From Microbacteriaceae bacterium VKM Ac-2854 (GTDB lineage Bacteria; Actinomycetota; Actinomycetes; Actinomycetales; Microbacteriaceae): 64,000 nt of DNA. Under the pieces are notes generated by a model. It worked only from the letters and a program-made list of their open reading frames with translations, was not told the DNA's origin and did no database searches. Within the stretch, counting starts at the first letter, position 1; each line of letters starts with the position of its first letter. Location of the stretch: assembly GCA_013205085.1 (NCBI GenBank), contig JABMLH010000004.1, positions 124,001 to 188,000 of the forward strand. The letters run 5' to 3'. A program made the translations under genes and the position numbers. Positions 7,751 through 22,401 of the stretch are shown here, piece after piece.

Positions 7751-9241
7751 CTAGGACCAGCCGTTGTCGTACCAGGCGTGCCAGACGGCGTTGTCGAGGC
7801 CGCGGCCGACGATGTCCAGTCGGCCGGGGCCCCAGCTCGCGGCATCCAGCCCCGAGGAGAAGCCGCCGCCGAGGTACTCCCAGTCGCTCCAGCCGTTGTC
7901 GAACCACTTGTGCCAGCACGCGTTGTCCAGGCCGCGGGCCACGATGTCGAGCCGACCCGCCGCCCAGGAGGCGATGCCCGGGCTCGAGCTGAGACCGCCG
8001 CCGAGCGACTCCCAGCCGCTCCAGCCGCCGTCGAACCAGATGTGCCACAGCGCGTTGTCGCCGCCGCGCGCGACCACATCGATCCGCCCGTTCCCCCAAC
8101 TCACGGCCGCGGGATCCGAGGTGATCACGCCGCCCAGCGACTCCCAGTCGTGCCAGGAGCCGTCGAACCACCGGTGCCAGAGCGCATTGTCGGTGCCGCG
8201 GACGAACACGTCCAGGCGCCCACTGCCCCAGCTCGCCGCGGCCGGGCCCGAGGTCGCCACACCGCCGAGCGATTCCCAGTCGTGCCAGCCGCCGTCGAAC
8301 CAGCGGTGCCACACCGCGTTGTCGGTGCCGCGCGCCACGATGTCGAGCCGGCCGGAGGCCCAACAGGAAGCCGCCGGATCGGAGGTGATCACGCCGCCCA
8401 GCGACTCCCAGTCGTGCCAGCCGCCATCGAACCACTTGTGCCACAGCGCGTTGTCCGTGCCGGCGACCAGCACGTCCAACCGCCCGGATCCCCACGAGGC
8501 GGCACCCGGACCGGTGTTTCCGACGCCGCCGAGCGACTCCCAGCCCACGCCGCTCGCCAACTGAGCGACCGCCCCGGTGACCCGGTAGTCGACGCCCGAG
8601 GGGGTGTAGCGCAGCGAGATCGGCTGGTCGGCGAGCTTCGCGACCGCGATCGGCACGCTCGCATCCACCGCAGCGAACGTCAGGGCCGTGATCCCGATGA
8701 CATCATCGGGATCGCCGAACGACTGGAAGAACAGGCCGATCTTCTCCCCGGTGGACGGTTCGACGGACGCACGGATGGCGTTGATCGCCCGGTCGATGTC
8801 GGGCTGCGGATTCGCCAGGTTCAGCCCGCCGTCCTCCACCAAGGACTTCAACTGGCTGCGGATAGCGGTGCGCACGTCGCCGATGATGCTGCGAATCGCG
8901 CTGAACGGCGTGGCATCCGACTCGAACGTGATCACGAGCGCTCCCACGATCTCCGGCATCGCGCCGGCCGTGATCTGCGCCACGTTCGGCCGGTCGACCC
9001 CGTCGAAGCGCACCACGCCCTGGTTCTTCGGGATGTTGCGAGCTTCGTTGTCGTCGATCCCGTTCGCCCAGTCCTCGTCGAGCACTCCGCTCCAGGTCAC
9101 CTGCGTCGAGTTCGGCGTGCGGAACTTCGAGCGGAAGCCGAGCAGCACGAAATACGGCTCGTCGCCATCGCTCCAGAAATCGTCCTCGTCGGCGTTCTTC
9201 ACTTCCAGTCGGTCCAGTCGGATCGTCCAGTTCTCTGACAT
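7751..9241 (-). CDS. PLL-like (DUF346) six-repeat beta-propeller protein
   Basis: Protein of 496 aa with two parts. Residues 1-234 form an unrecognised N-terminal domain. Residues 235-496 are six tandem repeats of 44 residues, each with the pattern ESLGG-SxPxAASWGxGRLDVxxRGxDNALWHxWxDGGWxxW, which is the DUF346/PLL-like propeller repeat; relatives in this family bind sugars such as fucose. The last repeat stops two residues short. There is no signal peptide. The start is the ATG of MSENWTIRLDR, with AAGGAG six bases upstream; a longer reading to 9364 adds Arg/Pro-rich residues unlike a protein. Neighbours give no functional clue. Confidence 0.85.
   Translation of the reverse strand: MSENWTIRLDRLEVKNADEDDFWSDGDEPYFVLLGFRSKFRTPNSTQVTWSGVLDEDWANGIDDNEARNIPKNQGVVRFDGVDRPNVAQITAGAMPEIVGALVITFESDATPFSAIRSIIGDVRTAIRSQLKSLVEDGGLNLANPQPDIDRAINAIRASVEPSTGEKIGLFFQSFGDPDDVIGITALTFAAVDASVPIAVAKLADQPISLRYTPSGVDYRVTGAVAQLASGVGWESLGGVGNTGPGAASWGSGRLDVLVAGTDNALWHKWFDGGWHDWESLGGVITSDPAASCWASGRLDIVARGTDNAVWHRWFDGGWHDWESLGGVATSGPAAASWGSGRLDVFVRGTDNALWHRWFDGSWHDWESLGGVITSDPAAVSWGNGRIDVVARGGDNALWHIWFDGGWSGWESLGGGLSSSPGIASWAAGRLDIVARGLDNACWHKWFDNGWSDWEYLGGGFSSGLDAASWGPGRLDIVGRGLDNAVWHAWYDNGWS
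7754..8539 (-). repeat. Six tandem 132-bp coding repeats
   Basis: The propeller half of the gene consists of five full 132-bp units and one 126-bp unit. The units code for nearly identical peptides, and the second and fourth share GGVITSDPAA. The high similarity suggests recent amplification and could allow unit number to vary by recombination. Confidence 0.85.
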
Positions 9242-9346
9242 CGTCGTCACTCCTTGTCGTGTGGAAAGTGGAAATCTGCCCCGCCTCCGGTGTACTCGGG
9301 GGCGATCGGAGGCGGCATCGGGGCAGACCCTGGCTGCAGGGTTCTC

Positions 9347-10931
9347 ACGCTGTGGAGTTGTCAAAGTGCGGGCTCGGTTGAGCGGGGTCTAGCCGGTTCT
9401 TCGTTGTCGGTCGGGGATGCTCTCGGTGAGCGGGTTTCTGCTGGGTAGTTCGGTGAGTCTCCTTCCGGGGTCTGTTTCTCGGGGCCGGTACAGGTAGTAC
9501 CGGGAACCGGTGCGGGTGATGCGCCAGTGCTGGTTGTGCAGCAGCAGGTGGTGGGCCCGGCAGAGCAGGACCCCGTCGGCGAGGTCGGTGCGGCCGGCGT
9601 CCTTCTGCCATTCGTTGAGGTGGTGGGCGTCGCACCAGGACGCGGGCCGGTCGCAACCGCTCCAGCGGCAACCACCATCGCGGACCGTGAGCGCGAGCCG
9701 CTGCCAGCGATCGAAGAGTCGTTGGGTGCGGCCCAGGTTCAGCACCCGCCCGTCCGCCGCGAGGGTGATCGGCGCGATCCCGTCCGCGCACGCGGCGGTA
9801 CGCACGAACGCCGCGGACACCACGCCGCGCGAGTTGCCGAGGACACCGAGCCCGTCATCGGCCCGGTCGGCGGCGTCGTCATCGAGTGCATCGAAGTCTT
9901 CGACCGCGGGTGCGATCTCGGTGTCGCGGATGATCACCGCGACCGGTGATCCCTGCCGCGGCAGCGTCTTCTCGTCGCTGTTCACCGCGACCCGCAGCGC
10001 CGCGCCGAGCGCGTCGTGCCACAACTGCGCCACCGTCGGCGCGTCCTGGACCGCGGGCGCCTCCGTGAACCGCGGCCGACGCAACGACGCCGCGACCACC
10101 CCGTCGCACAGCGTGCGGAGGTTCTCCGCGACGTCCGCCATCAGGAATCCGGATACCCGGTGCATCCCGTCCTCGACCGGCCCGATCGTCAGGGCGCGGC
10201 GGGCAAGGTTGCGCCGCTCGCGGGACAACACCAGCGTGCGGTCGAGCCCGTCGCGTCGGTACTTCGCCTCCTTGAACAATGCCTCCGGAGTCAAAGCGCC
10301 ACGGTCGCGGACCAGCACGAGCAGGTCCCGCAACGCCCCGGCGAGCGCATGCCCGGACACATCCCGAGTCGGTTCCCCGATCCCTCGGATGACCGCCGCA
10401 GCTCCCGCGGGCGAGAGCAACCCCGCGGCCACGAAGCGGGAGAGCGCAGCGTTCCACCCGGTCGCGCACACGCAGAACGCCCCGCCGGAGCACGCCTCAC
10501 CCAACGGGTCCCCAGAAACCGACCCCGCAGAAGTCGACGCGAGCAGCGTCCCCACCTGGATCGCCCCCGCGGTCTCCCGCTTCGACGCCCCGGTCATCCC
10601 CGCGATCAACTCGACCGCATCCCGAGCCCCGGACCGCTTCGCCAGCGAATCCGCACCGAGCGCGGGAGCGGACCGTCGCGCGATCTCCGCACACACCGCA
10701 GCAGACGCAACCCCGTGCGCCTTCCCGATCGTCGCGAACACCTCCACCAGCCGCAGCGCCTCCTCGTCGCGCAGCTCGGCGAGCGACCCGGCACCCGCCG
10801 GGAGCGGGGTGCCGAGCAGTTCGCCCGCCGCCCGCCAGATCGTGTCGCTGAGTGTGTCCATACGAACAATGCTCGCATCTGTCTTCGATTCGAGCAAGAC
10901 TCGAAACGTCCGAAACGCGCCAGGTTTCGAA
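9347..10931 (-). repeat. DUF222/HNH repeat unit, copy 1 (pairs with 35602-37221)
   Basis: Sequence similarity to the second unit extends past the gene on both sides. The downstream flank begins ACGCTGTGGAGTTGTCAA in both copies. The upstream flank shares ACGAACAATGCTCGCATCT directly before the start codon, and CGAAACGCGCCAGG about 60 bases further out. This is what is expected of a REP13E12-like dispersed element rather than of two ordinary paralogues. Confidence 0.7.
9389..10861 (-). CDS. DUF222 / HNH endonuclease (REP13E12 family), copy 1
   Basis: 490-aa protein with an N-terminal helical DUF222 region and a C-terminal HNH nuclease. The HNH core is visible as CRWSGCDRP, then DAHHLNEWQ, then LLCRAHHLLLHNQHW, including the zinc Cys pairs and the His-Asn-His residues. 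The family is repeated many times per genome in actinobacteria (the M. tuberculosis 13E12 repeats). The start MDTLSDTIW is chosen by alignment with copy 2 at 35655-37151; a reading from 11020 adds 53 residues without homology there. No Shine-Dalgarno precedes the ATG, but the last 20 bases upstream are conserved between copies, so the message may be nearly leaderless. The biological role is not known. Confidence 0.88.
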   Translation of the reverse strand: MDTLSDTIWRAAGELLGTPLPAGAGSLAELRDEEALRLVEVFATIGKAHGVASAAVCAEIARRSAPALGADSLAKRSGARDAVELIAGMTGASKRETAGAIQVGTLLASTSAGSVSGDPLGEACSGGAFCVCATGWNAALSRFVAAGLLSPAGAAAVIRGIGEPTRDVSGHALAGALRDLLVLVRDRGALTPEALFKEAKYRRDGLDRTLVLSRERRNLARRALTIGPVEDGMHRVSGFLMADVAENLRTLCDGVVAASLRRPRFTEAPAVQDAPTVAQLWHDALGAALRVAVNSDEKTLPRQGSPVAVIIRDTEIAPAVEDFDALDDDAADRADDGLGVLGNSRGVVSAAFVRTAACADGIAPITLAADGRVLNLGRTQRLFDRWQRLALTVRDGGCRWSGCDRPASWCDAHHLNEWQKDAGRTDLADGVLLCRAHHLLLHNQHWRITRTGSRYYLYRPRETDPGRRLTELPSRNPLTESIPDRQRRTG

Positions 10932-11203: not shown

Positions 11204-11219
11204 GAAACGGAAGCGTTTC
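11204..11219. promoter_or_regulatory. Dyad GAAACGgaagCGTTTC upstream of ABC/rut-like cluster
   Basis: Perfect six-base arms separated by GAAG, about 205 bases upstream of the binding-protein start. It resembles operators of LacI- or GntR-type regulators. The cluster encodes a GntR/UTRA protein, so an autoregulatory site is possible. Confidence 0.45.
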
Positions 11220-11423: not shown

Positions 11424-12593
11424 ATGCCTTCCCTCACCACCGCCCGCCGATCGGGCGTCGCCGCGCTCGCCGTCGCCGGCGTCGTCCTGCTCGCCGGCTG
11501 CTCCGGCGGCACCTCCGCCGCCACCTCGTCCGAAGGCTCCGCCGACGGCATCGCCTACGCCTCCGCCCAGATCGAGGCCGCCAGCGTCGACCCCGCTTTC
11601 ACCTTCGAGGGCGACGCCTTCGACCTCTCCGCCATCGCCGGGAAGACCATCTTCAACATCCCCAACTCCTCCGCCGTCCCCTTCATCACCGCGGTCGATG
11701 AGGAAGGCAAGGCGCTCGTCGAGAAGTACGGGGCCACCTGGGTCGAGTACACCAACCAGGGCACCCCCACCGAGCACTCCTCGGGCATCGACCAGGCGAT
11801 CAGCCAGAAGGCCGACGTCATCATCCTCGCCCAGGGCGTCAACGGCGAGCTGATCATCCCGGCGCTGGAGCGCGCGAAGGCCGCGGGCATCCCCGTCGTG
11901 ATCAGCCACACCTACCAGAACGGCGAGGAGCTCCCCGAAGACCTGCAGCCGCTGATCGCCGCGCAGATCACGGCGCCGTTCGCCGAGTCCGGCCGCCTCA
12001 ACGCCGACTGGGCGATCCAGGAGACCGAGGGCACCGGCGACATCCTGATCATCACCTCCGCCGAGGTGCCGCCCTCGGACGGCATCGTCGAGGCGATGCA
12101 GGGCGAGTTCGACGAGTACTGCCCCGGCTGCACCGTCAAGGTCGTGAACGTTCCGGTCGCCGACTGGGCCACAAAGATCGCCTCCACCGTGCAGTCCGAG
12201 CTGCAGATCAACCCGAACCTCGACTACGTGCTGCCCGTCTACGACTCGATGACCCTCTTCGTCGAGGCCGGCGTCACCGCGGCCGGCAAGGTCGGCTCGG
12301 TCTTCACCTCCTCCTACAACGGCACCCCCGACGTGATGAAGATCATGCAGGACGGCGACGTGCTCACCATGGACATCGGCGAGAACATGCAGTGGCTCGC
12401 CTGGGCCACCATCGATCAGGTCGGCCGGGTGCTCACCGGCACCCCGATCATCGAGGACGGCGACGAGAAGACCCCGCTGAAGATCTTCACCGACGAGAAC
12501 GTCGACGAGGCCGGCACCCCGCCCACCGGCAGCACCGGCTACGGCGACGCGCACGTCGCCGGCTACGAGGCGATCTGGGGACCCGCAGAGTGA
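11424..12593 (+). CDS. RbsB-type ABC transporter substrate-binding lipoprotein
   Basis: Extracellular receptor of the second importer (389 aa). A signal peptide of about 30 residues ends in the lipobox LLAGC, and the mature part is a Peripla_BP_4-type two-lobe fold with VIILAQGVNG, IPVVISHTYQ and DYVLPVYDSMT. The start is the ATG of MPSLTTARR with GGAG nine bases upstream; the open frame continues far upstream only because it runs antisense to the HNH gene. It overlaps the ATPase gene by 4 bp. RbsB-like receptors bind sugars or ribosides in most known cases. The RutA and hydrolase genes downstream suggest that a nucleoside, base or other ureide is carried here, which is inference. Confidence 0.88.
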   Translation: MPSLTTARRSGVAALAVAGVVLLAGCSGGTSAATSSEGSADGIAYASAQIEAASVDPAFTFEGDAFDLSAIAGKTIFNIPNSSAVPFITAVDEEGKALVEKYGATWVEYTNQGTPTEHSSGIDQAISQKADVIILAQGVNGELIIPALERAKAAGIPVVISHTYQNGEELPEDLQPLIAAQITAPFAESGRLNADWAIQETEGTGDILIITSAEVPPSDGIVEAMQGEFDEYCPGCTVKVVNVPVADWATKIASTVQSELQINPNLDYVLPVYDSMTLFVEAGVTAAGKVGSVFTSSYNGTPDVMKIMQDGDVLTMDIGENMQWLAWATIDQVGRVLTGTPIIEDGDEKTPLKIFTDENVDEAGTPPTGSTGYGDAHVAGYEAIWGPAE

Positions 12594-14215
12594 CCACCAC
12601 CCGGGAGGCGCCCGCGCCGACGACCACGACCGCTGAAGCGACCCCGCTGCTGCGCATCCGCGATCTCACCAAGCGCTTCGGCGGCCTCACCGCCCTCGAC
12701 GGCGTCGACCTCGAGATCCGGCCCGGCCAGGTGCATGCGCTCCTGGGCGAGAACGGCTCGGGCAAGTCGACCCTGATCAAGATCCTCTCCGGCACCTACG
12801 CGCCGGAACCGGGAGCCACGATCCAGGTGCGCGGCGCGTCGGTTCCGGTGCCCGTGCCTCCCGGGTACTTCCGCCGCCTCGGCATCAGCTTCGTGCACCA
12901 GGACCTCGCGCTGGTGCCGCAGCTCAGCGTGACCGAGAACCTGCGCCTGGCGACCGTCGTCGCCGGCCGCGGCCCATTCATCCGCTGGGGTCACGAGCGC
13001 CGCCAGGCCGCCGAGCTCTTCGCCCGCTACGGCATCGCGATCGACCCGGCCGCCACGGTCGACTCGCTCACCGACACGCAGAAGGCGCTGGTCGCCATCC
13101 TGCGCGCCGTCGCCGAGCTGGGTGACAGCCGCTCGCTGCTGGTGCTCGACGAGCCGACCGTCTTCCTGCCCAAGGAGGACGCCGACCTGCTGTTCCGCGT
13201 CGTGAAGGACCTCGTCCGCGACGGCGGCATGTCGGCGCTGCTCGTCTCGCACGACATGGCCGAGGTGCTGGAGCACGCGGATCGGGTCACCGTGCTCCGC
13301 GCCGGCCGGGTGCAGGCGCATCGCGACACGGCCGACACCACCGCGGATGAACTGGTCGCGCTGATCGTGGGCCGCGGCCTCACCGCTCCCGAGCCGCGCG
13401 GCATCCGCGCGAGCAGCGGTGCGCCGGTGGTCAGCGTCCGCGGGCTCAGCGCCCGTGCCGTCGACGGCCTCTCCTTCGACGTCGCCGACGGCGAGATCGT
13501 CGGCGTCACGGGCCTCGCCGGCTCGGGCGTCGAGGATGTGCTGCCCGGCCTGTACGGCGCGATCCCGGCCGCCGGCGCGCTGCACGTGCACGGCGAGAAC
13601 CGCGACCTGGCCGCCGCGAGCCCGCGCGCCTCGATCGCCGGCGGCATCGTCTACGTGCCCGCCGACCGCAAGGTCCAGGGCGGCGTCGGCACCCTGAGCG
13701 TGGAGCAGAACATCACGCTGCCGGTGCTGCACCGGCTGCGCGGGATGCTCGGCGTCTCGCCGGCCCGCGAGCGCGAGCACGCCGGGCAGCTGGCGAAGGA
13801 CTACGACGTGCGCCCCGCCGATCCGTCGGCCCTGTTCGGCACCCTCAGCGGCGGCAACCAGCAGAAGGCCGTCCTGGCCAAGTGGATGCAGGACTCGCCG
13901 CGGCTGGTGCTGCTGCAGGAGCCGACCCAGGGCATCGACGTCGGCGCCCGAGCCAGCATCTTCGCGATGCTGCGCCGCACTGCGGAGCAGGGCGTCTCGA
14001 TCGTCTGCGCCTCCACCGACTACGACCAGCTCGCCTCCGTCTGCGACCGGGTGATCGTGCTCGCGCACGGCCGGGTGCACGACGTGCTCGAGGGCGAGCG
14101 GATCGACCGCGACATCATCGCCTCCGCCGTCGTCGCCAGCCTCGTGGCGACTCCCTCCGAACTCGAAACCGCAGACACCGCAGAACCCGAAGAACCCGCC
14201 AAGGAGATCGTCTGA
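12590..14215 (+). CDS. Sugar-type ABC transporter ATP-binding protein (double ABC module)
   Basis: 541-aa tandem ATPase of the RbsA/MglA class. A Thr/Ala-rich N-terminal 20 residues precede module 1, which has Walker A GENGSGKST at 53-61 and LLVLDEPTVF as Walker B. Its signature is degenerate (SLTDTQKALVA), as in this class. Module 2 has the canonical signature [14 protein letters not shown], but its Walker B reads LVLLQEPTQGIDVG, with Gln in place of the usual Asp. The start is GTG overlapping the receptor's stop (GTGA), chosen over an in-frame ATG 198 bases upstream that lies inside the receptor gene. The permease gene overlaps its own stop by one base (TGATG). Confidence 0.92.
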   Translation: MTTTREAPAPTTTTAEATPLLRIRDLTKRFGGLTALDGVDLEIRPGQVHALLGENGSGKSTLIKILSGTYAPEPGATIQVRGASVPVPVPPGYFRRLGISFVHQDLALVPQLSVTENLRLATVVAGRGPFIRWGHERRQAAELFARYGIAIDPAATVDSLTDTQKALVAILRAVAELGDSRSLLVLDEPTVFLPKEDADLLFRVVKDLVRDGGMSALLVSHDMAEVLEHADRVTVLRAGRVQAHRDTADTTADELVALIVGRGLTAPEPRGIRASSGAPVVSVRGLSARAVDGLSFDVADGEIVGVTGLAGSGVEDVLPGLYGAIPAAGALHVHGENRDLAAASPRASIAGGIVYVPADRKVQGGVGTLSVEQNITLPVLHRLRGMLGVSPAREREHAGQLAKDYDVRPADPSALFGTLSGGNQQKAVLAKWMQDSPRLVLLQEPTQGIDVGARASIFAMLRRTAEQGVSIVCASTDYDQLASVCDRVIVLAHGRVHDVLEGERIDRDIIASAVVASLVATPSELETADTAEPEEPAKEIV

Positions 14216-15243
14216 TGGCCACCCTCGAATCCCCCGCGACCGCGGCCCCGCGGCTCGCCCGCCCGCGCTTCTCCTGGGGTCACACCGAGCGCTACGCCCT
14301 GCTGGGCGCCTGGGTCGTGATCGTCGCGGCGTTCAGCATCCTGCTGCCGCAGACCTACTTCACCCTCGGCAACCTGCAGAACGTGTTCGGCTCGCAATCG
14401 GTGCTGCTGATCCTCGCCCTCGGCTTCCTCTTCCCGCTCACCGCCGGCGAGTTCGACCTCTCCGGCGCCTCGACGATGTCGCTCTCCGCCATGACCATCG
14501 CCGTGCTGAACGCGCAGCTGGGGCTGCCGCTGGGCGTCGCGATCCTCGCGGGCCTCACCGCCGGCGTGCTGGTCGGCCTCATCAACGGCCTGCTGACCGT
14601 GGCGTTCCGGATCGACTCCTTCATCGTCACCCTCGGCACCTCGACGCTGATGATCGGCCTGATCCAGTGGATGAGCAACGCCTCCTCCGTCACGGGCGTC
14701 GACTCGGCGCTGGTGCAGGCGACGGTCGGCTGGCGCGGCTTCCTCGGCCTGCCGCTCGCCTTCGTCTACGGCCTGATCGCGACCGTGATCGTGCTGATCA
14801 TCCTGACCTCGACCCCGGTCGGCCGCCGGCTGCTGTTCGTCGGGATGGGCCGCCCCGTCGCCGAGCTCAGCGGCCTGAACGTGCGCCGGCTGCGCGTTGG
14901 CGCCTTCGTCGGCGCGGGCCTGACCGCCGCGGTCGCGGGCGTCGTCTACGCCGGCACCCTCGGCGGCGCCGACCCCTCCTCCGGCCAGTCCTTCCTGCTG
15001 CCCGCCTTCGCCGCCTGCTACCTCGGCGCGACGGCGATCGTGCCCGGCCGCTTCAACGCGATCGGCACCTTCATCGCGGTCTACTTCCTCTTCTCCGGCG
15101 TCGTCGGCCTGCAGATGCTCGGCGCGCAGAACTTCGTGCAGCAGCTCTTCTACGGCGGCGCGCTGATCATCGCGGTCGCGGTGTCGCAGACCATCCGCCG
15201 GCACGCGGTCAAATCGGCCGCGAACGCAGCCAAGTCCTCCTAA
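14215..15243 (+). CDS. Sugar-type ABC transporter permease
   Basis: 342-aa integral membrane protein of the RbsC/BPD_transp_2 family with eight to ten hydrophobic segments. The diagnostic FPLTAGEFDLSGASTMSLS corresponds to the GxIDLSVGS motif, and LSGLNVRRLRVGAFVGAG is the cytoplasmic loop that contacts the ATPase. It completes a receptor-ATPase-permease importer with overlapping genes. The rutA gene begins 29 bases later behind AAAGGAA, so importer and catabolic genes are probably on one message. Confidence 0.92.
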   Translation: MATLESPATAAPRLARPRFSWGHTERYALLGAWVVIVAAFSILLPQTYFTLGNLQNVFGSQSVLLILALGFLFPLTAGEFDLSGASTMSLSAMTIAVLNAQLGLPLGVAILAGLTAGVLVGLINGLLTVAFRIDSFIVTLGTSTLMIGLIQWMSNASSVTGVDSALVQATVGWRGFLGLPLAFVYGLIATVIVLIILTSTPVGRRLLFVGMGRPVAELSGLNVRRLRVGAFVGAGLTAAVAGVVYAGTLGGADPSSGQSFLLPAFAACYLGATAIVPGRFNAIGTFIAVYFLFSGVVGLQMLGAQNFVQQLFYGGALIIAVAVSQTIRRHAVKSAANAAKSS

Positions 15244-15272
15244 TCCCCCTGTAACCGAAAGGAATCCCTCCC

Positions 15273-16349
15273 ATGGATATCGGCGTCTTCATCCCGATCG
15301 GCTCCAACGGCTGGCTCATCTCCACCACCTCGCCGCAGTACAAGCCCTCCTACGACCACAACCTCGCAGTCGTGCAGGCGGCCGAGAAGCACGGCTTCGA
15401 CTTCGCGCTCTCGATGATCAAGCTGCACGGCTACGGCGGCCCGAGCGAGTTCTGGGACTACAACCTCGAGTCGTTCACGCTGATGGCGGGCCTCGCCGCC
15501 CAGACCGAGCGGATCAAGCTCTTCGCGACCACGGCCGTGCTGACCATCCCGCCGGCGATCGCCGCACGGATGGCCTCGACCATCGACTCCATCTCGCACG
15601 GCCGCTTCGGCCTCAACCTCGTCGCCGGCTGGCAGAAGGCGGAGTACGACCAGATGGGCCTGTGGCCCGGCGACGCCGTGCACTTCGAGCGCCGCTACCG
15701 CTACCAGACCGAGTACATGCAGGTCATGAAGGAGCTGTGGGAGACCGGCGAGAGCAACTTCAAGGGCGAGTTCTTCACCATGGACGACTGCCAGATGAAG
15801 CCGCAGCCCTCCACGCACATCCCGATCGTGTCGGCCGGCCAGTCCAGCCAGGGCATGGAGTTCGCGGCGAAGTACTCCGACTACAACTTCTCGATGGGCG
15901 TCGGCGTGAACACGCCCACCGCCTACGCGCCGCAGAACCAGGCGCTGATCGCGGCCGCCGCCAAGACCGGCCGCGATGTCGGCAGCTACGTGCTCTTCAT
16001 GATCATCGCCGAGGAGACCGACGAGGCCGCGCAGGCCAAGTGGCAGCTCTACAACGACGGCGTCGACCACGAGGCGATCGGCTGGATGACCGGCCAGGCC
16101 AAGACCGACGTCAACGCAGAGGAGGGCAACACCGCCTCGCGGATCTCGCTGCCCGAGGGCGCCGTGAACATGAACATGGGCACCCTGGTCGGCTCCTACG
16201 AGAACGTCGCCCGGATGCTCGACGAGGCCGGCGAGGTCGAGGGCACCAAGGGCGTCCTGTTGGTCTTCGACGACTTCGTCGAGGGCGTCGAGAAGTTCGG
16301 CACGCACATCATGCCCAAGCTGAGCTCGCGCACCACGGTGATGGTATGA
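15273..16349 (+). CDS. rutA: Pyrimidine monooxygenase RutA
   Basis: FMN-dependent luciferase-fold oxygenase (358 aa). In E. coli, RutA opens the uracil ring between N3 and C4 using a flavin peroxide. Similarity to E. coli RutA, as I recall its sequence, is close and ungapped over the first 130 residues ([46 protein letters not shown]). The oxygen-pocket residues known there as Thr105, Asn134 and Glu143 align with Thr86, Asn115 and Glu124 here. The protein lacks the roughly 19-residue N-terminal extension of the E. coli enzyme. No flavin reductase (RutF) gene lies in the window, so reduced FMN must come from elsewhere. It overlaps the next gene by 4 bp. Confidence 0.93.
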
Positions 16350-17251
16350 CCGCCGCCCCGGTTCTCAACGTCGTCGTGGTGCAGGCCGGCGAGACCCCCG
16401 CCGACCGCACGGAGGCGCTGGATGAGCTGATCGCGCTGTTCGAGCAGGCGGCGGGCCCCGAGGTCGACCTCGTGGTCTTCCCGGAGCTGTGCACCACGCC
16501 GTACTTCTGCGGCGGCACCAACGACGCCTACAAGTCGTGGGCGCAGACCATCCCGGGGCCCGACACCGAGCGCTTCGCGAGCGCGGCGAAGCGGCTGAAG
16601 ACCGGCGTCGTCTTCGGGCTCTACGAGGACGCCGGCGACGCGCAGTACAACTCGGCGGTGATGATCGACGCGAACGGCGAGCTCGTGCGCGGCACGGACA
16701 TCAACGGCGACGAGCGCTGGAGCTACCGCAAAACCTCGATCCCGAAGAACGACATCTCGGATGTGGATGAGAAGTACTTCTTCGCGCCCGGCACCGGGCC
16801 CGTGATCTTCGAGGCCTTCGGCACCCGCTTCGGCATGCTGATCTGCTACGACCGCTCCTTCCCCGAGTACTGGCTCGCCTCCCGCGCCGCCGGCGCCGAG
16901 GTGATGCTGGTGCTGGTCTCGTCGATGGGCTTTCGCGAGACGCTGTTCACCCAGGAGCTGCAGGTGCGGGGGCTCGAGACCCAGACCTGGATCATCGCGC
17001 CGAACCGCGGCGGCGTCGAGACGCTCGACGGCAAGACGGTCAGCTACTTCGGCCGCTCCTGCATCGTGGCGCCCGACGGCACGCTGATCGACACCGCCGC
17101 CCCGCACACGGCCGGCGACTCCATCGCCGCCACGATCGACATCGGCCAGGTGGCCGCCCAGCGCGCCGCTTTCCCGCTCGGTTCCGACCGTGTGCCCGGC
17201 GTGTTCCGCTACCTCGCCGAGGCGCACGCCGCCGTGCCGGTGCCGGCGTGA
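16346..17251 (+). CDS. Nitrilase-superfamily hydrolase (carbamoyl/ureido amidase-like)
   Basis: 301-aa carbon-nitrogen hydrolase. The catalytic triad is plain: Glu47 (VVFPELCT), Lys129 (SYRKTSIP) and Cys167 ([10 protein letters not shown]). Its overall pattern resembles N-carbamoylputrescine amidase and beta-ureidopropionase. Placed directly after RutA with a 4-bp overlap (ATGA), it is well suited to hydrolyse a ureido product of ring opening, but the exact substrate is inference. It is not a RutB, which belongs to the isochorismatase fold. The next gene also overlaps by 4 bp. Confidence 0.88.
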
Positions 17252-18873
17252 GCCACTTCGCGACGGTGCTCGCCACGATCACGCCGCAGCTCGACGGCGC
17301 GCTCGTGGCGAGCCGGGCCCGGCCGCTGCCCGCGTCGCCCTCCGCGCTGGCCGCCGAGCCCGCGCACAGCGCCCAGCTGTTCGAGCGCCTCCTCGGTGAG
17401 GCGATCGGGCCGGTCGCTCCGGTTGCGCTGCCGCCGGTGCCCGCCTCATTCGATGCGGCGAGCGCCGACGTCTCCGAACTGCTCGCCGCCTACGCCGCGG
17501 GCGTCACCACTCCAAGCGCCGTTCTCGCCGAGTTGACCCCGCTCTGGAGCGCCCCCGCGGTGTGGTCGGATGCCGTGCTGCGGCTGATCGACGGCGCCGC
17601 CGACGCCGCTGCCGAGAGCAGCGCGCGCTGGGCCGCGGGCACCGCGCGAGCGCTGGAGGGCATCCCCTTCGCCGTCAAGGACATCATCGACGTCGAGGGC
17701 GTTGTCGTCACCAGCGGATCGCTGCAGACCGGCGACCGGGTCGCCCCCGCCGACGCCACCGCGGTGGCCCGGCTGCGCGCCGCGGGCGCCATCCCCGTTT
17801 TTATGGCGGCCACCACCGAGTTCGCCTGCGGCGGCCCCGTCAGCTCGCGCTACGGCGCCGTGCGCAATCCGTGGGATCCCGAGCGCTGGACCGGCGGCTC
17901 CTCCACCGGCTCCGGATCCGCTCTGGCCGCGCGGATCGTGCCGCTCGCCCTGGGCAGCGACACCGGCGGCAGCATCCGTGTGCCCGCCGCGCTCTGCGGC
18001 ATCACCGGTATCAAGCCGACGTACGGCCTGGTGCCGCGCACCGGTGTCGCGAGCCTCTCCTGGACCCTCGATCACGTCGGGCCGATGGCCCGCAGCGCCC
18101 GCGACCTCGCCCGGGCCCTCGCCGTGCTGGCCGGCGCCGACGGCGTCGACCCGAGCAGCCACGACGCGGTGCCGCGGCTCGCCGCGGATGCCGCCCTCGT
18201 CGCCGGGCTGCGCATCGGCGTGCCCCGCGCCTGGTTCACCGAGCGCAGCGACTCCGCCGTGCTCGCCGCGTTCGAGACCGCGATCGCGACCTTCCGCGAG
18301 CTGGGCGCCGCGATCGTCGAGCTCGACTTCGACGGCATGGAGCACGTCGGCGGCCTCGCCGACATCGACGGCGAGTGCTGGACGATCTTCTACGGCGAGC
18401 TCGCCGCGAATCAGGAGGCGAACGCCGCGACCGCCGAGCTCTTCGACGACGGCACCCGCGCGCGCTTCGACCTCAGCTTCACGCCCACCGCGGCCGACTA
18501 CCTCCGTGCCCTGCGCCGGCGCCCGCTCGCGCAGCGCGCCGTGCTCCAGCGGATGGACGAGGCCGGCGTCGACGTGCTGCTCACCCCCGGCATCGGCGCC
18601 ACCGCGCCGCGCCTGGACGATCTGACCATGTCGGTCGACGGCGAGCGGTTCAACCTGCACGACGTGATCCCGCGCAACACCCGGCTGTTCGACTACCTGG
18701 GCTTCCCCGCCCTGATGATGCCGGCCGGTGTCGCGCCCGACGGCCTGCCCGTCGGCGTGCAACTCGTCGGCCGCCCCTGGCACGATCGGCTCTGCCTCTC
18801 GGCGGCGGTGGCGTTCCAGGATGCGACCTCGTTCCACCTCCGGGCGCCCGCCGCGTCCGCGTCGAAAGGCTAA
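17248..18873 (+). CDS. Amidase-signature hydrolase (AtzF/GatA-like) with N-terminal extension
   Basis: 541-aa amidase. The Ser-cisSer-Lys triad is intact: Lys144 (FAVKDIID), the Ser pair 218-219 (GGSSTGSGSA) and nucleophile Ser242 (DTGGSIRVP). About 70 residues precede the amidase fold proper. They are largely helical and resemble in position the small AtzG/DUF4089 subunit that accompanies AtzE, which suggests, as inference, a fused subunit. Relatives act on carboxybiuret, allophanate or acyl amides, all of which would fit degradation of a cyclic ureide. GTG start by 4-bp overlap with the preceding stop. Confidence 0.87.
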   Translation: MSHFATVLATITPQLDGALVASRARPLPASPSALAAEPAHSAQLFERLLGEAIGPVAPVALPPVPASFDAASADVSELLAAYAAGVTTPSAVLAELTPLWSAPAVWSDAVLRLIDGAADAAAESSARWAAGTARALEGIPFAVKDIIDVEGVVVTSGSLQTGDRVAPADATAVARLRAAGAIPVFMAATTEFACGGPVSSRYGAVRNPWDPERWTGGSSTGSGSALAARIVPLALGSDTGGSIRVPAALCGITGIKPTYGLVPRTGVASLSWTLDHVGPMARSARDLARALAVLAGADGVDPSSHDAVPRLAADAALVAGLRIGVPRAWFTERSDSAVLAAFETAIATFRELGAAIVELDFDGMEHVGGLADIDGECWTIFYGELAANQEANAATAELFDDGTRARFDLSFTPTAADYLRALRRRPLAQRAVLQRMDEAGVDVLLTPGIGATAPRLDDLTMSVDGERFNLHDVIPRNTRLFDYLGFPALMMPAGVAPDGLPVGVQLVGRPWHDRLCLSAAVAFQDATSFHLRAPAASASKG

Positions 18874-20350
18874 GCGCATCACGAGCCCCACCTCGGACGA
18901 GGCCGACGTCCAGCGTCGCGCGTGGAAGATCCTCTTCACGTCGAGCCTGAGCGTCGTCCTCGTCTTCATCAACTCCAGCGCGCTGCTGATCGCGTTGCCG
19001 CAGCTCAGCCGCGACCTCTCCGCCACCGGCGCCGAGTCCAGCTGGGTGCTGCTGTCGTACATGCTCAGCACCACCACGCTGATCCTGGTCTTCGGCCGGA
19101 TCGCCGACATCGTCGGCCGGCGCCGGCTCTACATCCTGGGCATCCTGCTGTTCCTGCTCGCCTCGCTGGCGTGCGGATTCGCGCCGAACGCCGGCCTGCT
19201 GATCGCGGCCCGGCTGGTGCAGGGCGTCGGCGCGGCCGCGATCGTGACCAACACGACGGCACTGCTGACGGATGCGTTCCCGGAGCGCACCCTGAGCCTC
19301 GGCCTCGGCCTGAACGCCACGGTCGCGGCGGTCGGTCAGGTGGTCGGGCCGCTCGTCGGCGGCGTGGTCACCGAGGCGCTCGGCTGGCGCTGGATCTTCC
19401 TCGCCGGCATCCCGATCAGCCTGGCCGGCCTGCTGTGGTCGCTGCGGCTGATCCCCCGCCGGGCCCGCCCGCGCGAACCGGAGCGGCTGGACGTGATCGG
19501 CAGCGTGCTCTCCATCGCGGCGATCGGCGCGATGGTCGCGGCCGTCTCGCTCGGCGGCGCGCTCGGCTGGACCTCGCCGCTGGTGCTCGGCACCGGCTCC
19601 ATCGCCATCGCGCTGTGCATCGTCTTCGTCTGGAGCCAGCGCGTGGTCGCGCATCCGCTGGTCGATCCCGACATCTTCCAGGACCGCGCCACCATCACGC
19701 TCTACACCTCCGCCGCGCTCTGCGCTCTGAGCAGCTACGCGCTGGTGCTGCTGGCCTCGCTCTCGTTCCAGGCGGTGGACGGGATGAGCGCGCTGGACGC
19801 GGCCGTCGCGATCCTGCCCGCGCCGCTGGGCACCACGATCGCCGCCGCCGCGGCCGGGCTGCTGGCCCGGCGGTTCCGGGCGCGAACTCTGGCCACGATC
19901 GGTATGACCCTGATCGGCTGCGGCGCGCTGCTGCTCGCGTTCAGCCTCGGCAGCGCGGCGGCCTACCCCGTCTCGGCAGCGGGCCTGGGCGCGATGGGCG
20001 CGGGCACGGGCATCTTCATGACGCCCTCGACGGCGGCGCTGATGACCCGCATTCCGGAGCGACGCCGCGGCATCGCGAACGCCATCCGCTCGGCGCTGCA
20101 GAACGCGGGCTACCTGTTCAGCACGGCGATCGGCCTGGCCATCGCGACCAGCGGGCTGACCATCGCGCAGCAGGCCGCCGCCTACAACGGCTCGCTGCTG
20201 GACCTCTCCCCCGCGGATGTGCAGGCCTTCGTCGACGGCGTGCGCACGGCCGCACTCACCTTCGCGGGCCTCGCCTTCGCCGGCGCCGCGGTGACCGGCT
20301 TCGGACCCTTCGGCGGGCCGGTCGTTGTGCCGGACCCGCGTTCCACCTGA
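18821..20350 (+). CDS. MFS transporter, DHA2 (14-segment) family
   Basis: Drug/proton antiporter-type permease of about 490-509 aa with fourteen hydrophobic segments. It has GRIADIVGRRRLYILG between segments 2 and 3 and the long second half of the DHA2 family. The start is uncertain. The nearest in-frame ATG (18821) lies inside the amidase gene and gives an Arg-rich leader. By contrast, GAAAGG at 18864-18869 sits eight bases before an in-frame ATC (18878), which would give the natural-looking N-terminus ITSPTSDEAD. Within this catabolic cluster it may export a toxic or surplus intermediate, or import an alternative substrate; direction cannot be told from sequence. Confidence 0.85.
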   Translation: MRPRSTSGRPPRPRRKAKRITSPTSDEADVQRRAWKILFTSSLSVVLVFINSSALLIALPQLSRDLSATGAESSWVLLSYMLSTTTLILVFGRIADIVGRRRLYILGILLFLLASLACGFAPNAGLLIAARLVQGVGAAAIVTNTTALLTDAFPERTLSLGLGLNATVAAVGQVVGPLVGGVVTEALGWRWIFLAGIPISLAGLLWSLRLIPRRARPREPERLDVIGSVLSIAAIGAMVAAVSLGGALGWTSPLVLGTGSIAIALCIVFVWSQRVVAHPLVDPDIFQDRATITLYTSAALCALSSYALVLLASLSFQAVDGMSALDAAVAILPAPLGTTIAAAAAGLLARRFRARTLATIGMTLIGCGALLLAFSLGSAAAYPVSAAGLGAMGAGTGIFMTPSTAALMTRIPERRRGIANAIRSALQNAGYLFSTAIGLAIATSGLTIAQQAAAYNGSLLDLSPADVQAFVDGVRTAALTFAGLAFAGAAVTGFGPFGGPVVVPDPRST

Positions 20351-20369
20351 CCGACCCTTGGGAGAAACC

Positions 20370-21017
20370 ATGACCGACACCGCCACCGACGCCACCGCCG
20401 CACACACCGACGCCACCGATTACGCCTCCGCCGGGCTCGCCGGCCACCTCGAGGCCGGCACCCGCACCGCCCTCGTGATCGTCGATCCGGTCCGCGCCTA
20501 CATCGACCCGGAGTGCCCGTTGTACGCCGGCGTCGAGGAGCCGGTCGAGCGGATGCGCGAGCTGCTCGCCGCCGCGCGCGCGGCCGGCGTCCACGTCGCG
20601 ATCACCACGATGTCGCTCTCCGCCGACGGCTCCAACGCCGGCGTGTTCTATCGCAAGGTGCCCGCGCTGAAGGCCTATCTGCCCGGCAACCCGTTCGGAG
20701 ACTTCATCGACGGCCTCGCGCCAGAGCCGCAGGACACCCTGGTGCCCAAACAGTACCCGAGCGCGTTCTTCGGCACCTCGCTCGCCGCCGGACTGCACGC
20801 GCGCGGCGTGGACACGGTGATCCTGGCCGGACTGAGCACCAGCGGCTGCATCCGCGCCACCGCGACCGACGCGATGCAGCACGGCTTCGTACCGATCGTC
20901 GCCCGCGAGGCCGTCGGCGACCGGCTGCCCAGCGTGCACGAGGCGAACCTGTTCGACATCGCCGCCAAGATCGGCGAGGTCTGGCCGATCGAGAAGGTGA
21001 CGGCTCTGTGGTCGTGA
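20370..21017 (+). CDS. Isochorismatase-fold cysteine hydrolase (N-carbamoylsarcosine amidase/maleamate amidase-like)
   Basis: 215-aa cysteine hydrolase with the triad Asp39 (LVIVDPVRAY), Lys127 (VPKQYPSAFFGT) and Cys160 (LSTSGCIRATA). The C-terminal pattern HEANLFDIAAKIGEVW is that of N-carbamoylsarcosine amidohydrolase and maleamate amidase rather than E. coli RutB. Either activity, removal of carbamoyl or amide nitrogen from a linear product, fits the pathway. The start follows GGAGAAACC and gives a Thr/Ala-rich leader of about 30 residues. Its TGA overlaps the TetR GTG. Confidence 0.9.
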   Translation: MTDTATDATAAHTDATDYASAGLAGHLEAGTRTALVIVDPVRAYIDPECPLYAGVEEPVERMRELLAAARAAGVHVAITTMSLSADGSNAGVFYRKVPALKAYLPGNPFGDFIDGLAPEPQDTLVPKQYPSAFFGTSLAAGLHARGVDTVILAGLSTSGCIRATATDAMQHGFVPIVAREAVGDRLPSVHEANLFDIAAKIGEVWPIEKVTALWS

Positions 21018-21607
21018 CCCGCGGTCGGCCACGCAGCGCGTCCTCCAGCGAGGCGATCGACGCCGCGTGCATCCGACTGCTCACCGCGGGCGAGGCGCTG
21101 ACGATCCGCGCGGTCGCCGACGCCGCCGGCGTCGGTGCCGCGACGATCTACCGCCGCTATCCCAGCCGCGAGATCCTGCTGACCGAGACGATCATCCGGC
21201 TGATGGAGCGGAGCATCCCCGCGCTGCTCGACGTGCCGATCGAGCAGGGCGTCCTCGCGCTCACGCGGGGCTGGGTGCACGCGATCGTCGCGACGCCGGT
21301 GGGCAAGGCGCTGCCCGCGATCGTCGAACTCGCCTCGCGCGACGAGCGTGTGGCGCAGGCCGTCGCCGACTGGCACACCGATCGCCGGCTGCGAGTGAAC
21401 GCCATGCTGCAGCGCGCGATGGACGCCGGCGAGCTGCGGCCCGACATCGATCTCGGCATCGCCGTCGACCTGCTCGGCGGGCCCACCTTCTACCGGCGCT
21501 TCTTCGTCTCGCTCGACATCGAATCGCCCGACTACGCGGACCGGCTCGCGCGCGAGTTCCTGCGCTGGGCGGGCTGGACCGGCTCCTCGCTAGGCTCACC
21601 GTCGTGA
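21014..21607 (+). CDS. TetR-family transcriptional regulator
   Basis: 197-aa repressor-type protein. The N-terminal helix-turn-helix is LTIRAVADAAGVGAATIYRRYPSREIL with the usual YRRYPSRE end; the C-terminal ligand domain resembles TetR_C_11. GTG start overlapping the upstream stop (GTGA); another GTG lies 6 bases upstream. It sits at the end of the ABC/rut-like cluster in the same direction, so it is probably produced with its targets and senses the substrate or a product. The palindrome at 11066-11081 is a candidate operator. Confidence 0.88.
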   Translation: MTRGRPRSASSSEAIDAACIRLLTAGEALTIRAVADAAGVGAATIYRRYPSREILLTETIIRLMERSIPALLDVPIEQGVLALTRGWVHAIVATPVGKALPAIVELASRDERVAQAVADWHTDRRLRVNAMLQRAMDAGELRPDIDLGIAVDLLGGPTFYRRFFVSLDIESPDYADRLAREFLRWAGWTGSSLGSPS

Positions 21608-22401
21608 CCGATCTCCCCGCCGCCGCCCCGAGTTGGACCGATCCGCTGCAGTACCCGAACAGCGGCTTCGCCGTCGGATTCTCGCGCCGATCGGACGCGG
21701 CGCGCCAGGTCTCCGACCTGATCCGCGCCGACATCGTGGCCGGCCGGTTCACCGGCCCGCTGCCCTACGAGTGGGAGCTGCTGACGATGTACGGCACCAC
21801 CCGCAACGTGCTGCGCGCGGCGCTGGCGCTGCTGAAGGAGCAGCGGCTGCTCACGCGCGCACCGCGTTCGGGTACCTTCGGCGTGATGCCGGTCGCCTCG
21901 GTGAGCATGGCGCGCACCTCGAAGGAGGTCACCATCTACGGCGACGCGACCGGCGGCAGCGTCTTCGATTCGCCGCGGCTGAGCATCGTGCACCTCAGCG
22001 CCCAGCTGGTCGAGGCGCCCGAGACGGTGCGCACGAATCTGCGGAGCACCGACTCGCGCGCGTTCTTCGTCGAGAGTCTGATCTCGTTCGACGGCGAGCC
22101 GAGCCGGCTGCGCACGAGTTGGGTGCCGCACGAGCGCTTCCCCGACCTGCTGGCGGCACCGCTCACCGAATACGTGCCGGACGTGCTCGCCCGCAGCCTG
22201 GGCGCCCGGACGGAGGCGCGCCGGCTGCTCTTGAGCGCGGTGAACGCCGACCAGTGGGTCGCCGACCTGCTCGACATCCAGCCCGGCATGGCCATCTTCC
22301 ACATCGAACGACTGATGTGCCTGCCCGACGGCACCCCGGTGGAGTACGGCTTCTCGCGCTACCGCGGCGACCGCGCCGTGATCGACACCCGCATCGACTG
22401 A
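21604..22401 (+). CDS. GntR-family regulator with UTRA-type ligand domain
   Basis: 265-aa regulator. A GntR winged helix (QVSDLIRADIVAGRFTGPLP, then LLTMYGTTRNVLRAALALLK) is followed by about 170 residues of UTRA/chorismate-lyase-like ligand domain ending in GTPVEYGFSRYRGDRAVIDTR, which is diagnostic of HutC-type proteins. It starts with GTG overlapping the TetR stop. A cluster carrying both a TetR and a HutC-type regulator suggests control by two signals. The dyad at 11204-11219 is a candidate site. Confidence 0.9.
   Translation: MTDLPAAAPSWTDPLQYPNSGFAVGFSRRSDAARQVSDLIRADIVAGRFTGPLPYEWELLTMYGTTRNVLRAALALLKEQRLLTRAPRSGTFGVMPVASVSMARTSKEVTIYGDATGGSVFDSPRLSIVHLSAQLVEAPETVRTNLRSTDSRAFFVESLISFDGEPSRLRTSWVPHERFPDLLAAPLTEYVPDVLARSLGARTEARRLLLSAVNADQWVADLLDIQPGMAIFHIERLMCLPDGTPVEYGFSRYRGDRAVIDTRID

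Follow-up and report, generated by a model that had tools for sequence, protein, structure and literature searches.

The window, that is, the whole 64,000-nucleotide stretch of DNA analysed here (contig JABMLH010000004.1 of Microbacteriaceae bacterium VKM Ac-2854), carries between positions 11424 and 22401 a cluster that associates the flavin-dependent oxygenase RutA with an ATP-binding cassette (ABC) importer and three C-N hydrolases. It is considered somewhat probable that this operon is the local form of an alternative RutA pathway, in which the compound imported and degraded oxygenolytically would be a cyclic ureide or imide with a six-membered ring, and most likely something other than plain uracil. 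In this plant-associated-type actinobacterium, the operon looks like one form of a widespread food-use pathway. No description of a cluster combining RutA, an ABC importer and an amidase was found in the open-licence literature searched.

The ten-gene operon and its relatives

Open reading frame (ORF) and family scans of the cluster, which belongs to a 4.75-Mb genome and lies entirely on the plus strand, located ten genes at the places proposed by a first-pass annotation of the same DNA:

11424..12593, plus strand: CUT2-type substrate-binding protein (SBP), Peripla_BP_4 family (PF13407, 89.4 bits), with an N-terminus judged by eye to be lipoprotein-like; putative cyclic-ureide receptor
12590..14215, plus strand: duplicated sugar-type ABC ATPase with a GTG start (PF00005, two stretches); its top NCBIfam models are of the xylose/arabinose/YtfR type, all under their cut-offs
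14215..15243, plus strand: CUT2-type ABC permease (PF02653, 108 bits)
15273..16349, plus strand: RutA, flavin-dependent ring-opening oxygenase (TIGR03612, 598.7 bits, cut-off 498.3)
16346..17251, plus strand: nitrilase-superfamily amidohydrolase (PF00795, 136.9 bits)
17248..18873, plus strand: amidase-signature hydrolase with an N-terminal extension (PF01425, 316.6 bits)
18878..20350, plus strand: DHA2 major-facilitator exporter with a probable ATC start (EmrB-type TIGR00711, 229.0 against a cut-off of 230.2 when scanned from 18821)
20370..21017, plus strand: isochorismatase-fold cysteine hydrolase of the N-carbamoylsarcosine/maleamate amidase type (PF00857, 114.3 bits)
21014..21607, plus strand: TetR-family regulator (PF16859, 61.1 bits; PF00440, 32.5 bits)
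21604..22401, plus strand: GntR-family regulator with a UTRA ligand domain (PF00392, 43.8 bits; PF07702, 78.5 bits)

The successive intergenic gaps are -4, -1, 29, -4, -4, 4, 19, -4 and -4 bases. The gene overlaps noticed at first pass are thus of 4 bases at five of the nine junctions and, together with the conserved order described below, they bear out the view of the cluster as one functional unit.

A tblastn search of the window with E. coli RutA to RutG (1e-3) returned RutA (61% identity) and, as a weak match to RutB, the cysteine hydrolase (30% over 139 residues). RutC, RutD, RutE and RutF, which had been declared absent, gave no match in the 64 kb, nor did RutG. Neither a flavin reductase nor RutE is encoded within the operon; four Flavin_Reduct matches lie elsewhere in the genome. 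The cluster resembles the E. coli rut operon in its RutA-family enzyme, from which amide cleavage with reduced flavin mononucleotide (FMNH2) and O2 is expected, in the isochorismatase-fold hydrolase that follows it and in the possession of a TetR-family regulator. It differs from that operon by the lack of a true RutB, by a CUT2 importer in place of RutG, by the addition of a nitrilase and an amidase, and by a RutA that falls outside the canonical clade. The earlier proposals of RutA as the predicted ring opener and of the importer as the presumed substitute for RutG remain in force.

The conservation of the gene order in relatives had been set beforehand as a check. It was followed in 80 loci, the best of 291 contig stretches with a relative, picked by nearness to the window RutA. 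The nearest cluster-bearing relatives are Microbacteriaceae bacterium VKM Ac-2855 and Rathayibacter sp. VKM Ac-2754. All ten genes, arranged as in the window, occur in 10 of the 12 loci from Microbacteriaceae (L039-L049 and L070); L040 has no TetR match, and L049 has none for the nitrilase, TetR and GntR genes. No RutB or RutC label occurs in these 12 loci. Among five genes flanking the cluster in the window (1e-20), two were recovered in L039, which represents the nearest strain. The 11 further loci gave none of the five, L043, L044 and L047 being compared with shortened flanks. Since the order is kept in 10 of the 12 relatives, the linkage of the cluster is more than chance. Of 15 genomes of the genus, 3 have a RutA that exceeds the cut-off, and of 398 family genomes, 6 have a match at E <= 1e-120; both counts include the genome of the window. 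The cluster is an accessory trait and is not an oddity of one strain.

Across the 80 loci, the importer trio is present in 50, a relative of the amidase in 48, the cysteine hydrolase in 39, the nitrilase in 23, an AtzE-like amidase (c9) in 27 and a second amidase (c11) in 21; at least one of five amidohydrolase types is found in 68. Relatives of RutF occur in 30 loci, of RutE in three, of RutB, RutC and RutD in two each, and of RutG in none. Thirty loci span 20 kb or less. Among the 50 that exceed 20 kb, 49 contain an amidohydrolase, 36 the importer trio and 29 three or four amidohydrolases. The arrangement varies between groups. In rhizobial loci such as L063, a first arm comprises RutF, the AtzE-like amidase, permease, ATPase, SBP and a major-facilitator superfamily (MFS) protein, and in a divergent arm GntR and RutA are followed by one or two amidases and the cysteine hydrolase, the latter often preceded by a methylisocitrate/alkylmalate-type lyase. 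In freshwater actinobacteria, loci like L080 combine RutA with a RutD-like hydrolase (83.2 vs 238.5 bits), an FMN reductase, WrbA, a relative of 3-hydroxy-3-methylglutaryl-coenzyme A (HMG-CoA) lyase, a CoA-transferase, a nitrilase and an importer. RutA loci are also carried by plasmids of Palleronia (L131, which also has a RutE-type reductase and, ahead of its amidase, a small ORF) and Thioclava (L120), and in Allorhizobium S4 (L124) RutA, nitrilase, cysteine hydrolase, amidase and flavin reductase stand beside an ABC importer of a different type.

A RutA lineage outside the canonical clade

The window RutA can be aligned over its full length with the E. coli RutA structures, which head its PDB matches. 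The first-pass annotation had called it a genuine RutA with Thr105, Asn134 and Glu143 conserved. This is confirmed: its score lies about 100 bits above the model's cut-off, and the window protein retains each of the E. coli residues L65, T105, N134, V136, W139, E143 and F224. According to the available text of PMC10005588 and PMC7662398, T105 and N134 constitute the oxygen-binding pair, L65, V136 and F224 line the O2 cavity and W139 borders the cavity on the substrate side; the available text of PMC10005588, searched for Glu143, makes no mention of it.

The position of the protein among its homologs was examined in a tree of 101 sequences (row L133_1 was left out), in which a row was called canonical when RutB and RutC are neighbors of the RutA gene. 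A 100/99 branch separates the 12 canonical RutAs from the window RutA, which belongs to a group of 79 rows (95/89) consisting of 71 rows of alternative context and 8 with neither set of neighbors. This lineage, distributed over Actinomycetota and Alphaproteobacteria, is set apart from the canonical RutA clade, a point that was not foreseen at first pass. Loci L050, L057, L076 and L117 contain two or three RutA paralogs near amidases, the additional copies belonging mostly to a separate deep group. Three metagenome-assembled genomes titled Bifidobacterium breve (L095, L098 and L109) have a RutA that groups with those of freshwater Nanopelagicales assemblies, and their titles are probably wrong.

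The two sets of RutA also differ at specific positions. For these counts, L133 was put back from its annotation, giving 13 canonical and 79 alternative rows. Position 290 is a leucine in all 13 canonical proteins and a methionine in 73 of the 79 alternative ones; position 226 is a phenylalanine in 10 of the 13 and in none of the 79. The window RutA has a methionine at both. F226 is only two residues away from F224, which lines the O2 cavity, and we infer that it faces the substrate. At position 105, all canonical proteins have a threonine and 67 of the 79 alternative ones a serine, the window protein being among the 12 that retain threonine. A riboflavin or lumichrome substrate was also considered and dropped: the riboflavin lyase 5w48, a luciferase-like relative, is only a weak match (1.6e-06).

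An equivalog-level score and identical catalytic residues are equally what would be expected of plain uracil or thymine catabolism, the main rival explanation, which is judged rather unlikely. RutA would then produce ureidoacrylate, the cysteine hydrolase would replace RutB, whose fold and triad it possesses, spontaneous or general deamination would yield malonic semialdehyde, the ABC importer would replace RutG, and the other hydrolases would be accessory. This scheme agrees with the RutF relatives in 30 of the 80 loci, with the RutE relatives found in three loci and at L131, and with the two (methyl)malonate-semialdehyde dehydrogenases that exceed their cut-off in the window genome. However, a single amidohydrolase should be sufficient for it, whereas it has to account for three or four, the number counted in 29 of the 50 long loci. 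The distance of the cysteine hydrolase from RutB, the shifts of the RutA pocket at positions 290 and 226 and the occurrence of importer relatives in allantoin operons also speak against it. Finally, the genome has a separate locus for a dihydropyrimidinase (545.7, cut-off 393.25), whose neighbors are a nitrilase-fold enzyme, an F420-type oxidoreductase, an NMT1-type importer protein and an aminotransferase. A dihydropyrimidinase above the cut-off is present in all 15 genus genomes, and the core genome is likely to hold the reductive pyrimidine route. Plain uracil is therefore a less pressing reason for an accessory operon.

Relatives of the importer in other operons

Within the preferred explanation, the idea of a cyclic-ureide substrate draws independent, though not uniform, support from the importer. 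Its SBP, ATPase and permease have the fold and domain make-up of a CUT2 sugar importer. The fold is uninformative as to the ligand: for the AlphaFold2 model of the SBP (predicted local distance difference test, pLDDT, 85.0), the best Foldseek matches are ribose-type SBPs at about 20% identity. In the Thermoanaerobacter tengcongensis ribose-binding protein (2ioy), the stretches DR, ARDRG, QND and FDGT, which we take to be the sugar contacts, correspond to HT, IVEAM, VYD and YNGT in the window SBP, in an alignment of low identity.

More direct indications come from the genes that surround this importer outside RutA clusters. A plasmid search with a rhizobial SBP retrieved seven records, of which four are also RutA plasmids; the other three, two from Shinella and one from Salipiger, match at 46-47%. 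One record of each genus was opened. In Shinella (L146), the importer follows an allantoate-type hydrolase and the allantoinase PuuE (454.0, cut-off 424.6). In Salipiger (L147), it precedes PuuE, here short of the same cut-off (384.1), and a ureidoglycolate lyase that is under the NCBIfam cut-offs and passes Pfam PF04115 (86.8, cut-off 23). The SBPs of both operons are 35% identical to that of the window and have in common with it H162, W248, Y273, D274, M276, N299, D317, G319, E320 and W324, H162 and E320 not being kept in the seven freshwater rows. These operons therefore share with the window the SBP-ATPase-permease family and the candidate pocket residues. They differ in their ring opening, which is due to PuuE and followed by the allantoate-type hydrolase or the ureidoglycolate lyase, and no RutA is annotated in the stretch.

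Among 396 sampled genomes from the phylum, six, including the window's own, have an SBP match at 1e-25, and three of the five foreign matches were opened (G125, G064 and G352). In G125 (L164), the importer is adjacent to hydantoinases B and A and to an N-carbamoyl hydrolase (carbamoylase), although the best NCBIfam names of the hydantoinases are caprolactamase subunits, far under cut-off. A related importer is found here again beside a ring opener and an N-carbamoyl hydrolase, with the difference that this ring opener is of the hydrolytic oxoprolinase type and not an oxygenase. In total, a cyclic-ureide ring opener is present at three of the seven opened importer loci outside RutA clusters. 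Because of the two allantoin operons and this hydantoinase locus, the central idea of the first-pass annotation, a probable cyclic-ureide substrate, is strengthened. Among the remaining loci, L145 in Thioclava has an importer of the window's family and a flavin reductase elsewhere on the plasmid of L120, and L166 (G000:C11:661000-680500) is a second such importer in the window's own genome, with an SBP of 28-29% identity. The latter adjoins several luciferase-like oxygenases and a 40% RutA relative.

The hydrolases and the proposed pathway

The nitrilase-fold enzyme has the motifs FPEL at 45, YRKT at 127 and ICYD at 166, whose Glu, Lys and Cys are presumably catalytic; it remains under the cut-off of N-carbamoylputrescine amidase (AguB, TIGR03381; 120.2 vs 410.25). 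In the amidase, K144, S218, S219 and S242 are invariant across 34 sequences and are taken to be the catalytic residues (K144, S218/S219, S242). Its top NCBIfam models, and its amidase-signature fold, are those of AtzE, the 1-carboxybiuret amidohydrolase that acts with AtzG, but the AtzE cut-off is not passed (TIGR02715, 257.8 vs 425.75), and the link to triazines is weak for that reason. The N-terminal extension reported at first pass is real and amounts to about 65-70 residues ahead of the part common to other amidases. Residues 1-104 have no Pfam match, and the predicted model is poor (pLDDT 69.1, with most of the extension below 50). The idea that the extension is a fused AtzG or GatC is not supported by this Pfam scan, nor by the small ORFs of L120 and L131, which are unlike it by eye. 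These ORFs of 59 and 53 amino acids (L120:10817-10996 and L131:1779-1940), just upstream of the amidases, have a GRP..PEE.A...HPLIR pattern; the former matches no family. The amidase itself was not found in the plasmid collection by tblastn at 1e-80.

In the cysteine hydrolase, the triad D39, K127 and C160 is present in all 35 aligned sequences, E. coli RutB included. Nevertheless, the protein fails the RutB model (TIGR03614, 55.7 bits vs 377.95), and its closest solved structures are 26st and 1nba (N-carbamoylsarcosine amidohydrolase) and 3ot4. It shares with N-carbamoylsarcosine amidohydrolase and the maleamate amidase NicF the D-K-C triad, the TSGC motif and the best PDB matches, but lies outside any creatinine or nicotinate cluster. 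It is about 50% identical to proteins at the NicF position in loci whose gene make-up resembles that of nicotinate degradation. In a Tistrella mobilis plasmid (L148), a 60% identical hydrolase is found beside arylmalonate decarboxylase, CoA-transferase and HMG-CoA lyase. No RutA match occurs within the 20 kb around that cluster, which may share downstream steps with the RutA operon.

These two resemblances of the cysteine hydrolase speak for another explanation, held to be improbable, in which RutA would open a cyclic imide, maleimide-like or alkyl-substituted, the NicF-like hydrolase would form the diacid and a lyase would split the resulting alkylmalate. Among the 80 loci, a methylisocitrate/alkylmalate-type lyase is indeed found in 17, an HMGL relative in 16 and a CoA-transferase relative in 12, which suggests a hydroxy-diacid product. 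The window cluster, however, is devoid of such a lyase, the three importer relatives point to ureides, and the RutE relatives to a three-carbon product. Since these hints about the carbon skeleton disagree (malonic semialdehyde versus hydroxy-diacid), the RutA lineage may serve more than one substrate.

Several observations weigh against a dedicated cyclic-ureide pathway distinct from uracil use. The catalytic residues tested are the same as in the uracil-cleaving RutA, the change at L290 and F226 may leave specificity unaltered, and position 226 is a leucine in 3 of the 13 canonical proteins. The alternative-context RutAs do not form one clade: the label requires nine changes on the tree, and 8 of the 79 rows are outside the window's group, six of them in the deep group (second or third copies of multi-RutA loci), together with L117_2 and L121_1. 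The RutE relatives at three of the 80 loci and at L131 would fit malonic semialdehyde as end product, as from uracil. The importer link is based on three loci whose SBPs are 34-35% identical to that of the window, and no clear ureide ring opener is seen at the other four opened loci, L145, L165, L166 and L167. Two of these four belong to G064 and G352. In G064, no ureide enzyme is evident near the importer, where there are instead an alkylmalate-type lyase, an FMN oxidoreductase and a protein of the metallo-beta-lactamase fold; the short contig of G352 also has such a lyase beside its importer. Moreover, the 80 loci were chosen by nearness, so that their counts describe this neighborhood and not all RutAs, and their gene labels are best tblastn matches at 1e-10 within the DNA stretch examined.

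With these reservations, the cyclic-ureide pathway can be outlined from protein families and gene context. The CUT2-type importer would bring the ring compound into the cell. RutA, judging from homology and its intact active site, would draw FMNH2 from a reductase encoded elsewhere and, with O2, break the amide bond of the ring beside a carbonyl, so that a ureido acid or an amide acid is formed. The nitrogen still bound would then be set free as ammonia by the three C-N hydrolases (cysteine hydrolase, nitrilase-fold enzyme and amidase), acting in one order or another, and the ureido carbon would leave as CO2. The carbon skeleton would pass to general enzymes of the window genome. Its counterparts in relatives would be taken up by an alkylmalate-type lyase, by a RutE-type reductase, or by a CoA-transferase together with an enzyme resembling HMG-CoA lyase. 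The GntR/UTRA and TetR proteins are the predicted regulators. Of the first-pass interpretation, the functional unit, RutA as putative opener, the importer as stand-in for RutG and a probable cyclic-ureide substrate are retained; the individual substrates that it named (uracil riboside and barbiturate-, hydantoin- or triazine-derived ureides) and its stepwise order of hydrolases are not supported.

A broader proposal is put forward tentatively, as one that may well fail: a CUT2 importer family dedicated to cyclic ureides would have been recruited by ring-opening chemistries unrelated to one another, namely those of allantoinase, of hydantoinase A/B and of the O2-dependent RutA, and this RutA branch would be a separate, RutB-independent pathway of plant-associated and freshwater bacteria for an abundant non-uracil ureide, a nutrient not yet recognised. 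RutAs of the alternative kind (e.g. L120 and L131) are annotated as 'pyrimidine utilization protein A', which is taken as uracil use. If the proposal is true, this label masks, in rhizobia, Methylobacterium, Curtobacterium and freshwater actinobacteria, a further route of nitrogen salvage that has an importer of its own, and the adjoining sugar-type importers are misannotated. The set of orthologs is ready for asking what flavin-N5-peroxide chemistry opens besides uracil.

The DHA2 protein probably exports a toxic intermediate or surplus product. The presence of this EmrB-type exporter and of TetR within the operon could also denote a detoxification or resistance module against a pyrimidine-like antimetabolite, with these two proteins as its core and the enzymes inactivating the drug. 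This is very improbable: the operon also holds an ABC importer, which speaks for use, and a DHA2 match is found in only the 12 Microbacteriaceae among the 80 loci. With looser clustering, weak relatives such as those of L050 and L079 bring the total to 17 loci, the rhizobial protein being a different MFS member.

The DHA2 gene most likely begins at the ATC of position 18878, a candidate natural ATC start codon, the nearest in-frame ATG upstream (18821) being inside the amidase gene. Of 13 sequences (window, L039-L049 and L070), 12 have ATC at the corresponding position and Cryobacterium L049 has ATG, and in 8 of the 13 no ATG, GTG or TTG is present between the preceding in-frame stop and the ATC. 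A candidate operator upstream of the cluster, GAAACG-GAAG-CGTTTC (11204-11219), occurs in the window and L039 and in none of the 11 other upstream stretches (181 bases for L043), and was left unused. Within the RutA cluster of Thioclava, L120:5548-6123 encodes a DHBP-synthase-like protein (PF00926, 97.5; RibB, 62.4 vs 177.45) between an Asp/Glu racemase and a flavin reductase. Elsewhere in the window, the minus-strand gene 7751-9364 encodes a protein with six DNALWHKWFDGGWHDWESLGG-type repeats, which appears lectin-like by eye.

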